A DNA stretch of 64,000 bases from Shinella sp. WSJ-2. GTDB lineage: Bacteria; Pseudomonadota; Alphaproteobacteria; Rhizobiales; Rhizobiaceae. This document shows positions 2,179-48,534 of this stretch, piece by piece. How positions within the stretch are numbered: position 1 is the stretch's first letter; every line of letters starts with the position of its first letter. Location: contig NZ_QWBU01000007.1 in the NCBI RefSeq assembly GCF_003432075.1, forward strand, positions 1 to 64,000. Direction: 5' to 3'. A program made the position numbers and the translations under genes. The notes under the pieces were generated by a model. That model did not search any database. It saw only the letters and a program-made list of their open reading frames with translations, and had not been told where the DNA came from.

Positions 2179-2730
2179 TCAATTCCCGCGGATGCGGACA
2201 CACGCATCCCGCCATTGCATCAGCTTTTTCCCATCATCCTTTTGCGGCGCAAGCGAATAGGTCGTGCCGGCAATGGTGATCGTCGCGCCCTCGCTGGTCT
2301 CTTTGGAGAGCGTATCGAGCAACGGAGCCGTGTCATAGGTACCAAGACTGAGCATCCAGCCGCCGTCCATCTCATTGGCATCGACATGAATCATCGAGAA
2401 CGGCAGATCGATTTTCTTTGCGCCGGCGGAAAGCGGAACGTTCGCATAGGTCGCGCCGGAAGACGCCTTGTTGATCAGATCGACCGCCGTTGTCTCTACG
2501 GGGCCGCTGAGGATGTTGATTTGTAGAGGCGGCGTCTGGGCGGGATCGCAGACAAGACTGTAGGCCACGCATTCGGAGACTTCATCGCCAGCGCAGAGGC
2601 TGAAGGTAAGATGCGCCGCCGGCTGCTCATTATTTTCGTAGAAATAAGCATGGAATTCCTCGCTCCACGCCGGTGCTAGGCCGAAGAAGAATACGGTGAA
2701 AATACCGGCAAGACGCGATGTGAATCTCAT
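2179..2730 (-). CDS. secreted hypothetical protein
   Basis: A 183-residue protein with a signal peptide (MRFTSRLAGIFTVFFFGLAPAWS, cleavage about residue 23). The mature part has four or five Cys (LCAGDEVSECVAYSLVCDP...DACVRIRGN) that could form disulfides in the periplasm, and otherwise beta-strand-like sequence. The start is well supported by GGAGGG seven bases upstream. It follows the 79-residue gene by 60 bp in the same direction and may share its LexA-box promoter. No family was recognised. Confidence 0.72.
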   Translation of the reverse strand: MRFTSRLAGIFTVFFFGLAPAWSEEFHAYFYENNEQPAAHLTFSLCAGDEVSECVAYSLVCDPAQTPPLQINILSGPVETTAVDLINKASSGATYANVPLSAGAKKIDLPFSMIHVDANEMDGGWMLSLGTYDTAPLLDTLSKETSEGATITIAGTTYSLAPQKDDGKKLMQWRDACVRIRGN

Positions 2731-2790
2731 GAGACCCTCCTGTCGATGACGAGCCGCATGATGGCGCGACGGACGCTTTGTGCGCCGCGC

Positions 2791-3030
2791 TCAACCTGCC
2801 GGCCAGCCGAGTATTCGCATATCCACAGCGTTTGTCGACGGTTTGGTGGCGCAGGCCGGGCGGTCTTGCATGAAGCCGCGCGCCATCGCGATGGCGGCGA
2901 TGCGCAGGCGGTCCTCAACCGCGTCCCGTTCAGCCAGCACGGTGCGGATGGCCTCAATCGCATCCCAATCGTGGAGGGCCAGGACAGCCATGGCTTCGTC
3001 TTTCTCTCGCTCGTAAGAGTGTAGGATCAT
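2791..3030 (-). CDS. small hypothetical protein of the LexA-box gene pair
   Basis: A 79-residue protein (MILHSYEREKDEAMAVLALHD...) with a predicted helical middle (WDAIEAIRTVLAERDAVEDRLRIAAIAMA) and a C-terminus containing RPACATKPS. Its ATG overlaps the TGA of the upstream 55-residue gene (ATGA), a classic sign of translational coupling. A GGAG lies about 11 bases before the ATG. Plus-strand ORFs across the same bases are Arg/Ser-rich shadows. Function is unknown; the gene appears to be second in a transcription unit behind a LexA-type operator. Confidence 0.6.
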   Translation of the reverse strand: MILHSYEREKDEAMAVLALHDWDAIEAIRTVLAERDAVEDRLRIAAIAMARGFMQDRPACATKPSTNAVDMRILGWPAG

Positions 3031-3194
3031 TGCAGGCGCAACTCCAACTGCTTCTTGCTTTTAAGAACATAGAGTGGCCGAGGCGCGGCCTGCGTCTTCC
3101 GCAGGCGTTCCGCACGCTCCGCCGCGACTTTTTCTCGCCAGGCGCGGGATTCCGCGACCACAGCAAGGGCTCTTTCTATCGCGTCCATCTGCAT
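3027..3194 (-). CDS. 55-residue basic helical protein behind a LexA-type box
   Basis: This ORF starts at ATG 3194 and encodes a 55-residue protein beginning MQMDAIERALAVVAESRAWR and ending KSKKQLELRLQ. It is rich in Glu, Arg, Ala and Lys and probably one long amphipathic helix or coiled coil. AAAGGTGA lies just upstream of the ATG. Its stop codon overlaps the start of the next gene by four bases. The promoter region contains GAAC-N7-GAAC (minus strand), the alphaproteobacterial LexA-binding pattern, about 16 bases before the start. Function is unknown; inferred to be SOS-induced. Confidence 0.6.
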   Translation of the reverse strand: MQMDAIERALAVVAESRAWREKVAAERAERLRKTQAAPRPLYVLKSKKQLELRLQ

Positions 3195-3209
3195 GATCAC
3201 CTTTAATTT

Positions 3210-3224
3210 GTTCGCTTTATGTTC
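3210..3224 (-). promoter_or_regulatory. putative LexA (SOS) box GTTC-N7-GTTC
   Basis: The plus strand reads GTTCGCTTTATGTTC, an exact GTTC-N7-GTTC direct repeat, the operator recognised by LexA in Rhizobium and other alphaproteobacteria. On the minus strand a candidate -35 TTGACT (3246-3241) is followed, 17 bases on, by AACATA (3223-3218), so the box would overlap the -10 region of the promoter for the 55-residue gene. This is a sequence match only. Confidence 0.6.
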
Positions 3225-3565
3225 TATTTTTGGTGCGGAAAGTCAATCGAATTTTTGTGAAAAACTGGTGAGATCTGGAGAGGATTACACGTGACCGGGC
3301 CGAAAAGGTGCCTTGAAGGAGCACGCACTATGCTTGAGTCGTCGGCTTTCCCATCGAACTGCCTGTGATCACGTAGCCGGGTTGGCCACTGGCCGCAACG
3401 GACACGATCGGCTTGCCGTTCGTACCTGAGAGCACGCCCCTGACATCGAAAGTCACATGCAGCGCACTGATGGCACTTAAAAAGATGCGCGACGATCCGA
3501 TGGCCATCATCAGATGGCTTGCCAGCCTAGAAGCTAGCCAGGGAGGTGCGTGAGCAGCTAACCGC
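3225..3565. other. gene-poor stretch upstream of the LexA-box genes
   Basis: Apart from the promoter elements at 3241-3246, no convincing gene was found. The minus strand holds a 60-codon open frame (3328-3510, MMAIGSSRIFLSAISALHVT...) that continues open upstream without a clear start or ribosome site. It could be a gene remnant, but it matches nothing recognised. Confidence 0.4.
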
Positions 3566-4750
3566 CTATAAAATGAAATCGGTACCCTTCATGACTAGGC
3601 TAACGTCTAACGCAATCGAGAAGTCAGCTTTACCGTCCCCGTTGATGTCACCAGAGATGAACGTATCGCCGGATTTTATCTCGTAGCGCAACTCTCCAGC
3701 TGCCTTATGAAAAGCCTGCGTATCAATGAATTTGAAAGCTTGGTCGCCGCTTTTGACCGAGTTTGCATCGATAAGCTTTAGGTCAATTTTCTCAGCATCA
3801 GCGCGAGAGAAATCTTTGATTGTGTCACGGCCAACACTAGAGACTGTGCTTTCTTTGATACTTTTAAATACGAATGTATCCTTCTCGGATCCACCGGTAA
3901 GCGTGTCTTTTCCGAGCCCGCCATAAAGCGTGTCAACGCCAGTGCCCCCCAAAAGAGTATCATTCCCATCATCTCCCTGGAGTGCATCATTGCCCGCATC
4001 CCCGGAGAGTAAGTCGTTTCCTTTGCCGCCATAGAGCTTGTCATTGTCTGCCTCGCCTTGGAAAGTGTCATTGTCAATTCCTCCGCGAAGAAGGTCGTTG
4101 CCGGCACCACCAAAGATCGTACCCGAAAGCCGGCCGTCGACACCGTTATAGACATCGTTGCCTGCGTCGAGACTTATTGTCCCGATTATCTTGCCGGTGT
4201 TTGTTATCTCCTCTATTGAAGATGCTTGAAAGCTAGTTGAAATGATGGAGTAATTTCCACCCTTTATTATTCCAGAGTTGAATATTTCGAGTGTTTCAGC
4301 CGCATTGGTGCCATGCCATACAGCTCTATCTGTCGCTTCAATTCTACCAGAGTTTATGACTTCCGAGGTTGTGGCCTCGGATGAACCGTTCATATACACG
4401 CCACGGCCGGTCGACCAGATTTTCCCTTCGTTCTCGACAACGCTACTGTAGCCATAGATCCATACCGCAGCATCGCTATTGTTTGTAAAGCTTTTAAGGC
4501 TGCCAGTTTCTCCAATTACAACGTGATGCAGGCGGTCTGTGGCCGGATCAATACCCAAATTGATCGCGTACGTGGAAGAGGCCACAATGCCATCCACATA
4601 GACGGAGCGGCCCGTTCCACTTCCGACGATCGCAGTCGTGTCGGTGGAGGAAACAACTACATTTTCCGCAATATATGCGCTGTCGCTCGTACCAAGATTA
4701 ACCTGAACGCCGCTGCCATCCAAATTGGTAGTGATTGTCTTCAATGCCAT
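3566..4750 (-). CDS. RTX-type calcium-binding repeat protein, probable type I secretion substrate
   Basis: A 394-residue protein in three parts. Residues about 1-190 hold degenerate short beta repeats (VENEGKIWSTGRG, VINSGRIEATDRA, IFNSGIIKGGNYS) suggesting a beta-helix. Residues about 210-295 hold nonapeptide RTX repeats (GGAGNDLLRGG, GGKGNDLLSG, GGLGKDTLTGG) expected to bind Ca2+. The C-terminus (DTFVFKS...DTIKDFS...SGDTFISGDINGDGKADFSI...MKGTDFIL) is a serralysin-like secretion tail. There is no Sec signal, as expected for type I export. GGGGGAG precedes the ATG. Base composition is visibly AT-richer than neighbours, suggesting acquisition. No type I transporter genes are in the window. 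Confidence 0.88.
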   Translation of the reverse strand: MALKTITTNLDGSGVQVNLGTSDSAYIAENVVVSSTDTTAIVGSGTGRSVYVDGIVASSTYAINLGIDPATDRLHHVVIGETGSLKSFTNNSDAAVWIYGYSSVVENEGKIWSTGRGVYMNGSSEATTSEVINSGRIEATDRAVWHGTNAAETLEIFNSGIIKGGNYSIISTSFQASSIEEITNTGKIIGTISLDAGNDVYNGVDGRLSGTIFGGAGNDLLRGGIDNDTFQGEADNDKLYGGKGNDLLSGDAGNDALQGDDGNDTLLGGTGVDTLYGGLGKDTLTGGSEKDTFVFKSIKESTVSSVGRDTIKDFSRADAEKIDLKLIDANSVKSGDQAFKFIDTQAFHKAAGELRYEIKSGDTFISGDINGDGKADFSIALDVSLVMKGTDFIL

Positions 4751-46832: not shown

Positions 46833-46976
46833 TTAGCGGAAGGAACGGGCTGCGATGTCGCGGATGTCGTAACGGGTCAGGCCGATGTCGGACAGCGTGT
46901 GGTTCGACAGGTTGCCGAGTTCGTTCATCGTGCGGCGGTAGGACATCCAGTTCTTGGCAATGCGGATCGGGTTCAT
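46833..46976 (-). CDS. DUF1127 small Arg-rich protein (copy A)
   Basis: A 47-residue protein starting [20 protein letters not shown] and ending RDIAARSFR. The family pattern (W..YR.T..EL..L....L.DIG..R.DI) is complete. GAGGAAAAG precedes the ATG. Members affect RNA metabolism, phosphate and carbon/nitrogen responses in Agrobacterium and Rhodobacter, and the Rhodobacter member CcaF1 is encoded with CCUCCUCCC sRNAs. A second copy lies 347 bases upstream. Confidence 0.92.
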
Positions 46977-47257
46977 GGTCTTTTCCTCGAAGTGTTGGCC
47001 GGAAGGTCTCTCTCACCGGTTTGTGACGCCCATATACGCGACATGCTTGTTAATGTGCAGTGCAAAGAAAATGCAGCTGCTATGCATTTGTGCAATAAGA
47101 CGATGACGGATCAGGCAGATGCCTGTGCTGCATGCGAAATAACCAGAAAGTGCTGCTATTCGAGGCATGTGGCCGGAAGGATCCAGTGCTGCTGCCGTCC
47201 CGCACAATGTCGCAGCTGAGGAATTGCGACATTGTGCGCCGCAAAAGGACGCGCAAA
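46977..47257. other. leader between the two DUF1127 genes
   Basis: With the terminator at 47258-47290, this makes a 346-bp gap. It should contain the promoter of copy A: CGTATATGGG lies near 47040 on the minus strand, and AT-rich sequence runs at 47040-47100. The 10-mer TGCAGTGCAA (47056-47065) recurs upstream of the second DUF1127 gene and of the distal sRNA. No ORF is supported. Confidence 0.4.
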
Positions 47258-47322: not shown

Positions 47323-47466
47323 TTAGATCGAAGCCTTGCGAGCGATGTACGGGATATCGCTGCGGCCGATGCCGAGGTCGCGAAGTTCGCGGTCGGTCAT
47401 GCGGCCGAGTTCGCTGACGGTCTGACGATACTTGCGCCAGTTGTTAAAAGAGCGTGCCAGGTTCAT
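47323..47466 (-). CDS. DUF1127 small Arg-rich protein (copy B)
   Basis: A 47-residue protein starting MNLARSFNNWRKYRQTVSEL and ending IPYIARKASI; it shares the W.KYR.T..EL..L....LRDLGI.RSDI pattern with copy A. AAAGGGG lies nine bases before the ATG. A minus-strand TTGACA at about 47609 may be its -35. Two CCUCCUCCC-type sRNA genes lie immediately upstream on the same strand, each with its own terminator. Confidence 0.93.
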   Translation of the reverse strand: MNLARSFNNWRKYRQTVSELGRMTDRELRDLGIGRSDIPYIARKASI

Positions 47467-47698
47467 GTCATTTACCCCTTTCGTGGGCTTGCGTACTGGG
47501 CGGCCGCTCGTCTTTGGCGCCGCCCTGATCTGATGGATTGGAATATACGCTGCGCCGCGAAAAAGGACAGCGCAATTGCTGTATGGCACCTATGCGTTTT
47601 ATGCATGTCAAGCGGAAATTTAGGCGAAATTCTGGCCAAAATCCGGGCTCGGCGCCACAAAGGTAAAGAAGCCATGCGGGATTGCTTGGTTGCAGTGC

Positions 47699-47826
47699 AA
47701 AAAGCAACGCCCGCCGGGGGAGGAGATCCGGCGGGCGTTGCTGATAGCTATTGGCAGTTTGGGAGGAGGAGGGGCTGCCAATCCTTGTCGGGGACGTTGG
47801 GAGGAGGAGATCGTCACCCGAGCTAT
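47699..47826 (-). ncRNA. alpha-r14/cuckoo-type trans-acting sRNA with CCUCCUCCC motifs (proximal copy)
   Basis: The minus-strand transcript has three anti-Shine-Dalgarno motifs: CCUCCUCCC at 47807-47799 (5' part) and 47769-47761 (loop of hairpin ATTGGCAG/CTGCCAAT, arms 47775-47782 and 47750-47757), and CUCCUCCC in the loop of the terminal hairpin (14-bp perfect stem, 47728-47741 with 47704-47717, then five T). A TATATC at 47838-47833 suggests a -10, placing the start near 47826. Length (about 128 nt) and layout match the rhizobial alpha-r14 family (NfeR1-like). These RNAs pair with ribosome-binding sites of target mRNAs. Confidence 0.8.
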
Positions 47827-47999
47827 GAGAAAGATATAGCCTGCCCGAACGATGGGCAAAAGCGCGCGATTGGAATGGCACCCATGCACGAGCCGCATGC
47901 GTTCGATTTGACTGTGCTGAATGCGGCGAATGCACAGGTATGCAGCCGGCGGTCATGAAAGATTTTTGATCGTGGGGTGTGGTTTGCCAGGTGCCGGCG

Positions 48000-48127
48000 A
48001 AAACAATAACGCCCGCCGGGGGAGGAGGTCCGGCGGGCGTCATTAAGAGTGATTGGCAACTGGGAGGAGGAGTGTTGCCAATCGTATCGGAGGAGCGCTG
48101 GGAGGAGGAGTGCGCCGCTCCGAATTC
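48000..48127 (-). ncRNA. alpha-r14/cuckoo-type sRNA with CCUCCUCCC motifs (distal copy)
   Basis: It has the same plan as the copy 300 bases downstream. All three motifs are perfect CCUCCUCCC (48108-48100, 48070-48062, 48028-48020). The central hairpin has 9-bp arms ATTGGCAAC/GTTGCCAAT (48074-48082 with 48052-48060), and the terminator has an 11-bp stem (48030-48040 with 48009-48019) followed by TATTGTTTT. The 5' end is estimated by analogy; a TATCGA near 48135 is a weak -10 candidate. The stems differ in sequence from the other copy while the loops are conserved, as expected for a paired duplicate. Confidence 0.8.
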
Positions 48128-48534
48128 CTGTTCGATACCGTCTCCGGCATCGGGTCTGTCGGCATCATGCCGGGCGTTCGACCATTCCGCCCTCCGGTCT
48201 GCCCGTCGCCTCCGCGGCGCCTTGGTTTCCGGTCCGAACCATCTCTGATCCGATGACTGCAATCTAACCCGATCCCTCGATTTTGTGCAGTGCAATATGG
48301 GAATGGATGATATGCGCCCGCTGCATGCCCGAAATCGAAACGCCACCGGCGTCTTGTTGCTAAATCTGCCAGGAATTTCTTTATTTCCCGTTAATCATCG
48401 CGCCGGTCGCATCGCACTTGGCCCGAATGGGCGGATTGTTGCGTCGATTGCGAATTTATGGCGGCGCTATACCGTTTCTGCTGACAGGGTATGCGCGGCA
48501 CGAATCGTGCGCGTTTTGAAGAGAGGCGGGACGA

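Follow-up and report, generated by a model that had tools for sequence, protein, structure and literature searches.

Tandem alpha-r14 RNA genes and two DUF1127 genes of Shinella lie behind separate predicted promoters with LsrB-type boxes

Genes for small RNAs with anti-Shine-Dalgarno loops are found beside genes for short DUF1127 proteins, and no agreed reason for this association was found in those parts of the literature that the search covered. A locus of Shinella sp. WSJ-2 poses the question whether the two kinds of gene are joined by a shared transcript or by a shared regulator. The DNA analyzed (referred to as the window) is the 64-kb stretch from position 1 to 64,000 of contig NZ_QWBU01000007.1, for which two tandem anti-Shine-Dalgarno RNA genes next to two DUF1127 genes had been predicted from the sequence.

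The RNAs were assigned with a covariance-model search, as had been proposed with the original prediction. Copy 1 (48004–48128, minus strand) matched the alpha-r14 (ar14) family, Rfam RF02344, with 122.1 bits (E-value 3.8e-22) and copy 2 (47702–47826, minus strand) with 84.0 bits (E-value 1.1e-13); both are above the gathering score of 58.8 bits. The motif CCTCCTCCC occurs five times in the 64-kb window, always on the minus strand and between 47761 and 48108; the mean in dinucleotide-shuffled sequences was 0.52, and a count of five was reached in 0 of 100 shuffles. The first loops of the copies, at 48100 (copy 1) and 47799 (copy 2), are 301 bp apart, exactly as predicted. Each copy folds into three hairpins whose loops carry the anti-Shine-Dalgarno motif (CCUCCUCCC in all three hairpins of copy 1, which ends in a 3' terminator hairpin), and the fold of copy 2 has a z-score of −7.66. 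The two motif-bearing hairpins that had been described for each copy were recovered, but the 5' CCUCCUCCC, listed as an element in front of them, is itself the loop of the first hairpin, and copy 2 has UCUCCUCCC, one C short, in its third loop, so that the locus holds five exact motifs and one that lacks a base.

The stem arms of the copies differ in the way that had been reported (ATTGGCAAC/GTTGCCAAT in copy 1 and ATTGGCAG/CTGCCAAT in copy 2), and the claim that stems covary around constant loops was borne out in a set of 36 sequences, made up of the two copies, the third ar14 of the genome and 33 sequences picked by hand from the survey described below. In the consensus structure 89.7% of the cells pair, against 68.4% after shuffling and at most 51.4% when the structure is slid along the alignment. 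Changes on both sides of the pair were seen for 21 of the 22 consensus pairs, and the covariation score was 0.591 versus 0.241 for shuffled data (0 of 500 shuffles as high). For hairpin 2, all eight pairs form in 95 of 146 sequences when each is given its own arms, and in 5.3% when the arms are swapped between loci. The three hairpins, the anti-Shine-Dalgarno loops and the variable yet paired stems that mark members of RF02344 are therefore all present.

A conserved promoter (see below) suggests that copy 1 starts some 130 nt ahead of the ar14 body. The predicted 5' leader (48129–48256, minus strand) contains several small hairpins, and leader and body together fold with a z-score of −3.34. 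The long distance between promoter and body is kept in 11 of 13 Shinella genomes, the leader being deleted in the other two (G002 and G005), and the copy 1 boxes of Sinorhizobium are likewise set back from the RNA body. The leader was also considered as a covarying RNA, a candidate that was dropped: its hairpins fold, but compensatory change is slight in the 11 sequences, and we claim the conserved distance alone.

Both neighboring open reading frames encode DUF1127 proteins of 47 amino acids, as predicted: gene 1 (47323–47466, minus strand) and gene 2 (46833–46976, minus strand) match Pfam PF06568 with 61.5 and 55.6 bits, respectively. The gene trmFO adjoins, downstream of both. Copy 1 and the two DUF1127 genes are kept at the locus in all 13 Shinella genomes (the genome under study and 12 others); copy 2 is found in 10 of the 13 and is missing in G006, G008 and G009, where the DUF1127 gene stays. 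In one Shinella genome (G001, locus L130) the distance between the ar14 copies is about 1.15 kb rather than 0.3 kb. Genome-wide, three ar14 and six DUF1127 genes were counted, and the third ar14 (contig C29) has a DUF1127 gene too, here upstream of the RNA.

The gene order was compared with that of Sinorhizobium meliloti Ak57, in which trmFO is followed by DUF1127, DUF1127, ar14, ar14, a tRNA gene and tig; the 3.7-Mb Ak57 record is labeled pSymB and was taken for the chromosome because trmFO, tig and lsrB are on it. This order recurs in the window, where two additional open reading frames precede the tRNA gene; the tig of the window is what we take, by eye, to be that gene. The order of RNA and DUF1127 genes, for which a synteny check had been suggested, is thus common to Shinella (13 of 13) and S. 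meliloti Ak57. In Ak57 (L278), several hundred nucleotides with long inverted repeats, resembling a rhizobial intergenic mosaic element, separate the ar14 copy nearer to the DUF1127 genes from these genes.

That Ak57 copy ends about 31.12 kb past AbcR2 (reckoned by hand) and the other one 30.84 kb past it; the coordinates printed for strain Rm1021 give a distance of 31,125 between NfeR1 and AbcR2 (PMC7143759). It has an LsrB-type box and the sequence TGC-N11-GCA, and an LsrB site and an NtrC site of the form TGC-N11-GCA have both been published for the nfeR1 promoter (PMC10746234). From the place of this Ak57 copy and the presence there of both published sites, copy 2 of the window is identified as the syntenic orthologue of NfeR1 (also Smr14C2 or SmelC397). 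The two have in common the ar14 family, three anti-Shine-Dalgarno hairpins, an LsrB-type box, a CTATAT −10 element and the gene order trmFO-DUF1127-DUF1127-ar14-ar14, and copy 2, like NfeR1, has its LsrB-type box upstream of a putative promoter of the sigma-70 type. They differ in the NtrC-type site. TGC-N11-GCA is present 132–133 nt before the first loop in the three Sinorhizobium loci looked at, but it is absent before copy 2 from that place, about 30 nt upstream of the LsrB box, and only one of the ten Shinella genomes with copy 2 (G004) has it there. Because of the missing NtrC site, copy 2 is regarded as the orthologous locus and not as an NfeR1 under nitrogen control. The association with the alpha-r14/cuckoo group that had been proposed for the RNAs is supported by the covariance model, the covariation and this synteny.

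In an alignment of the island from the 13 Shinella genomes, conserved promoter blocks alternate with poorly conserved sequence. The blocks of copy 1 and of DUF1127 genes 1 and 2 are conserved in all 13 genomes and that of copy 2 in the ten that have it, and every one of the four contains TGCA/GCAT words. All predicted promoters are on the minus strand. That of copy 1 (48261–48325) has TGCA-N6-GCAT at 48325–48312, TGCACTGCA at 48294–48286 and the −10-like GTTAGATT at 48268–48261, which is mostly CTATA in relatives; a perfect GCAT-N3-TG-N3-T is absent from it. That of copy 2 (47834–47898) has the composite box ATGC-N7-GCAT-N3-TG-N3-T at 47898–47875 and the −10 sequence CTATAT at 47839–47834, with a second TGCA-N6-GCAT at 47934–47921; GCAT-N3-TG-N3-T precedes copy 2 in all ten Shinella genomes that have this copy. 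The composite box recurs before DUF1127 gene 1 (47606–47583, in a predicted promoter at 47540–47606 with the −10-like TATATT at 47547–47542). For DUF1127 gene 2 (predicted promoter at 47030–47132) we found a TGCA-N6-GCAT at 47132–47119 that is not conserved, GCAT-N3-TG-N3-T on the plus strand (47084–47096), TGCACTGCA at 47064–47056 and the −10-like TATATG at 47036–47031; the conserved block spans about 47100–47050. Both kinds of word correspond to published sites: LsrB binds TGCA-N6-GCAT ahead of NfeR1 (PMC10746234), and the form GCAT-N3-TG-N3-T has been given for VtlR/LsrB (PMC7486931, PMC8844928).

The counts of these words over the whole window are unremarkable, and only their clustering is striking. 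TGCA-N6-GCAT occurs eight times and TGCA-N-TGCA three times in the window, counts that were matched or exceeded in 4 and 12 of 100 shuffles, respectively. Of 200 occurrences of TGCA-N6-GCAT in the genome five fall in the 1.5-kb island, and the Poisson probability of 5e-9 is descriptive more than a test, as the island was picked after the words had been noticed. TGCA-N-TGCA is found 65 times in the genome. The composite box has seven sites in the 5.14-Mb genome, four of which precede ar14 copy 2, DUF1127 gene 1, the DUF1127 gene on C29 and an unlinked DUF1127 gene on C22; one lies inside an apparent transporter gene, and the two other unlinked DUF1127 genes of the genome have none of the boxes. 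A fifth composite site (L177, G000:C22:453919) precedes an open reading frame of 50 amino acids with DUF3563, which is a possible new member of the regulon.

The proposed regulator is encoded in the genome. The Shinella lsrB gene product is a LysR-family protein of 302 amino acids with 90.4% identity to the product of the S. meliloti gene that immediately precedes the AbcR genes, and its gene sits between trxB and the tandem AbcR genes, a position also described for other rhizobia (PMC7486931, PMC12595884). GCAT-N3-TG-N3-T is found 61 nt before the 5' end of the first tandem AbcR gene and of the AbcR gene on C26, the same place as that of the box in the abcR1 promoter of S. meliloti (PMC8844928). 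The promoters of the single AbcR gene on C26 (L174, near 2941) and of the third ar14 (L167, C29) have the 16-mer GCATAGCTGCATTGCA in common. AbcR1 and AbcR2 (alpha-r15) resemble the present RNAs in their anti-Shine-Dalgarno loops, LsrB-type promoter and ABC-transporter targets, but belong to another Rfam family (RF02345) and lie at other loci of the Shinella genome.

Taken together, the RNAs and DUF1127 genes of Shinella appear to be independent units that each have their own conserved promoter, and what the four genes appear to have in common is a regulator box and not a transcript. The likeness to the co-transcribed ccaF1–CcsR genes, which had been part of the original prediction, does not extend to this layout. 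Most probably, then, the locus consists of the NfeR1 orthologue (copy 2), its sister copy 1 and two DUF1127 genes as four units with their own promoters, coactivated by LsrB, the RNAs acting in trans against Shine-Dalgarno sequences. The redox-responsive LysR-type regulator LsrB (VtlR) would activate all four promoters together, and each CCUCCUCCC loop would base-pair with Shine-Dalgarno regions, mostly in mRNAs for ABC uptake transporters, and block translation. The DUF1127 proteins would be co-induced partners that act either by binding RNA, as CcaF1 does, or on protein targets such as PhoR. Each half of the proposed regulation has a precedent: NfeR1 is activated by LsrB (PMC10746234), and VtlR binds atu1667, the orthologue of BAB1_0914 and BAB2_0512 (PMC7486931), which are DUF1127 genes activated by VtlR (PMC12595884).

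The loops of NfeR1 redundantly silence ntrBC and ABC-transporter mRNAs (PMC10746234, PMC8844928, PMC7143759). In the Shinella genome the sequence GGGAGGAG-N3-9-ATG has 32 sites, of which 30 were read; 20 genes with an open reading frame of at least 60 amino acids were retained and ten with shorter frames left out. ABC uptake components, as assigned by Pfam, made up 7 of these 20 genes and 0 of 14 controls that have GAAAGGAG instead, a Shine-Dalgarno sequence that was one arbitrary choice (16 sites, 14 with frames of at least 60 amino acids); the one-sided Fisher probability, calculated by hand on these small sets, was about 0.014. One component of a TRAP transporter was also among the 20. In this small test, the predicted targets agree with the known role of NfeR1.

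The association was then followed across orders in a survey of at least 120 stretches of named genomes, a sample obtained by scanning for three spaced motifs. The stretches were assigned to orders by hand from their titles, DUF1127 genes were detected with a profile built for the analysis, and four pattern matches from outside the alphaproteobacteria (L049, L052, L064 and L102) were dropped from the tables. Among the matches listed, a DUF1127 gene lies within 1 kb of the RNA in 32 of 90 stretches of Hyphomicrobiales, 20 of 22 of Rhodobacterales and 4 of 4 alphaproteobacterial stretches with less precise names, always on the same strand; of the 90, 38 have no DUF1127 gene within 1 kb and 20 end too near to judge. 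Up to 1.5 kb away from an ar14 these matches hold 72 DUF1127 genes in 320 kb, and beyond that distance 3 in 590 kb. Three layouts were seen: the DUF1127 gene may immediately precede the RNA, lie farther upstream of it or, as in Shinella, follow it. The predicted link between the two kinds of gene is real, and it is in print as the CIN1 locus (PMC10253847). In a genome from another family of the order (L164, G019:C130:28500-35500, positions 2643–4273), four consecutive DUF1127 genes share one strand, and three of them are each followed immediately by an ar14-like RNA, which makes an alternating protein-RNA array; the RNAs reach 45.6, 45.1 and 31.7 bits, below the cut-off, and the array is unscored in the Rfam gathering search. 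The cuckoo-type array of Yoonia litorea (L053/L211), beside which DUF1127 was not detected, is preceded at a distance of 102 nt by a GCATAGCAGCATTG box of its own.

Such constant orientation could have another cause, namely that the DUF1127 proteins, like CcaF1, bind these RNAs and help to mature them with RNase E, and that the genes have remained neighbors for this reason. CcaF1 of Rhodobacter acts in this way (PMC10253847, PMC8625941), the leader of copy 1 could be a substrate for processing, and NfeR1 has been contrasted with the Hfq-binding AbcR RNAs (PMC8844928). We regard this explanation as possible but rather doubtful: copy 2 would need no 5' processing if it started at its own promoter, many ar14 among the matches listed have no DUF1127 gene nearby, and the DUF1127 proteins of Agrobacterium tumefaciens act via PhoR and can be replaced by CcaF1 and YjiS (PMC12501420).

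With regard to co-regulation by LsrB, the reading we prefer, upstream boxes were counted against 4933 control segments. TGCA-N6-GCAT was found upstream of 29 of 80 separately placed ar14 and 28 of 53 DUF1127 genes from outside the Rhodobacterales among the matches listed (a set of Hyphomicrobiales with a few unnamed stretches), against 52 of 4933 controls, counts in which related species are unweighted. With a spacer of N5 the numbers were 14 of 80, 9 of 53 and 52 of 4933, and with N7 0 of 80, 0 of 53 and 32 of 4933 (same matches). TGCA-N-TGCA preceded 22 of the 80 ar14 and 18 of the 53 DUF1127 genes in the matches listed versus 0 of 4933 controls, although the controls overlap (545,901 different bases, with 25 TGCA-N6-GCAT and no TGCA-N-TGCA) and a zero is less than the rate in the Shinella genome (65 per genome) leads one to expect. 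Any of three strict boxes was present before 42 of the 80 Hyphomicrobiales ar14 and 64 of the 4933 controls; before the DUF1127 genes of this order, a strict box was seen in 27 of 30 separately placed genes and 6 of 17 that stand directly ahead of ar14, again among the matches listed. Where the RNA lies directly behind a DUF1127 gene, no box was found right before the RNA (0 of 17 among the matches listed). In 37 of 81 listed ar14, GCAT-N3-TG-N3-T starts 70–85 nt before the first loop. At the level of genera, 12 of 16 named ones have a strict box before one or more of their ar14, and 29 of 31 named groups have one before one or more of their DUF1127 genes (both among the matches listed). Strict boxes were absent before the ar14 of Mesorhizobium, counted separately (0 of 13 among the matches listed, several being second tandem copies), and before the DUF1127 genes of Martelella (0 of 3 among those listed). 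For the DUF1127 genes of Mesorhizobium the figure was 6 of 12 in the matches listed.

It is improbable that the boxes belong to some other LysR-type or TGCA-binding regulator and that LsrB plays no part. The match of the boxes is one of sequence, the spacing at copy 1 and DUF1127 gene 2 is variant, and several genera among the matches listed are without strict boxes, all of which would suit another protein. The published type of box, however, stands 61 nt before the AbcR genes of this genome, at the place it has in the S. meliloti abcR1 promoter (PMC8844928), and LsrB sites have been published for the nfeR1 promoter and atu1667 (PMC10746234, PMC7486931). As to the cis-acting alternative, in which the RNAs are leaders or attenuators of the downstream DUF1127 gene and terminator read-through controls it, their upstream position, common strand and terminators, and the uORF-dependent leader attenuation of an S. 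meliloti DUF1127 gene (PMC12218461), would fit, but it is set aside as very improbable given the separate promoter block of DUF1127 gene 1 (conserved in 13 Shinella), the loss of copy 2 with retention of the DUF1127 gene in 3 of 13, the 38 of 90 listed Hyphomicrobiales stretches that lack a DUF1127 gene within 1 kb despite enough flank, and the action of NfeR1 in trans (PMC10746234).

The proposed co-activation by LsrB was also considered for the Rhodobacterales. Among the matches listed, a strict box precedes all 19 Rhodobacterales DUF1127 genes with enough flank, in a set that does not include Rhodobacter sphaeroides; a twentieth gene (L026) has too little flank and was kept out of the count. 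The promoters follow the plain block ATGCA...TGCATnGCAGCATTG...ATTGTGCA...GCAGCAT. The strict Rhodobacterales core GCATNGCNGCATTG was tried as a marker and given up as unspecific, with 31 sites in ten genomes and 4 of the 30 loci read lying before cuckoo or DUF1127 genes. An RpoH-like element, TTG-N16-19-C[CA]ATnTT, was found in 9 of the 19 Rhodobacterales promoters, 1 of 55 others and 24 of 4933 controls (among the matches listed), which is suggestive but not complete. Each of the ten Rhodobacterales genomes searched has one close relative of LsrB (L186–L195), with 38 to 44% identity and 230–259 bits; the next LysR protein has at most 133 bits. In the DNA-binding domain 46–50 of 66 residues are common with LsrB, compared to 23–25 for four other LysR proteins. 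The relatives are not beside trxB in the loci read. The best places of Shinella LsrB and of the relative L186 coincide in Shinella PSBB067, S. meliloti Ak57 and Paracoccus denitrificans, for which replicon records rather than whole genomes were used. LsrB has been called unique to Rhizobiales (PMC11975290, 2025), and these candidate orthologues speak against a strict reading of that statement.

The CIN1 locus (ccaF1-CcsR1-4) of R. sphaeroides and its relatives resembles the Shinella locus in that a short DUF1127 gene adjoins cuckoo-type anti-Shine-Dalgarno RNAs on one strand, and the Rhodobacterales examples have the LsrB-type box ahead of the gene. It differs in that a single RpoHI/RpoHII transcript is cut by RNase E (PMC10253847), whereas in Shinella the RNAs lie upstream of the DUF1127 genes and have terminators, and all four genes have putative promoter blocks of their own, a layout unlike that with one promoter. 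The VtlR/LsrB regulon of Brucella and Agrobacterium (abcR, vrsA and DUF1127) likewise has RNA and DUF1127 genes under GCAT-N3-TG-N3-T boxes; in Shinella the alpha-r14 RNAs share box and place with DUF1127, but they are not named in the literature searched on that regulon. The family, NfeR1, the control of NfeR1 by LsrB and of DUF1127 genes by VtlR, and the CIN1 association are already in print. In the literature searched, NfeR1 and DUF1127 were not found together, on which Reinkensmeier and Giegerich 2015 and Gruetzner et al. 2021 may say more, nor were R. sphaeroides, LysR and CcsR, and none of the titles of the matches listed ties LsrB to CcsR. We would call new the co-regulation reading, above all its extension to CcaF1-CcsR. 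We lean slightly towards this extension, according to which one ancient regulon, with an LsrB-type activator and its TGCA/GCAT box, would govern anti-Shine-Dalgarno RNAs and short DUF1127 genes in both Hyphomicrobiales and Rhodobacterales, with an LsrB orthologue acting on CcaF1-CcsR in addition to RpoHI/RpoHII.

If the boxes are LsrB sites, co-regulation would explain why anti-Shine-Dalgarno RNAs and DUF1127 genes recur as neighbors, and the work on NfeR1 and LsrB in rhizobia, on CcsR, CcaF1 and RpoH in Rhodobacter and on VtlR and DUF1127 in Brucella and Agrobacterium would concern one module. Such a finding would bear on the claim that LsrB is unique to Rhizobiales (PMC11975290). If the wider proposal is true, NfeR1 and CcsR would be two forms of a single regulatory module, wired as separate sigma-70 units in one case and as one RpoH operon in the other.
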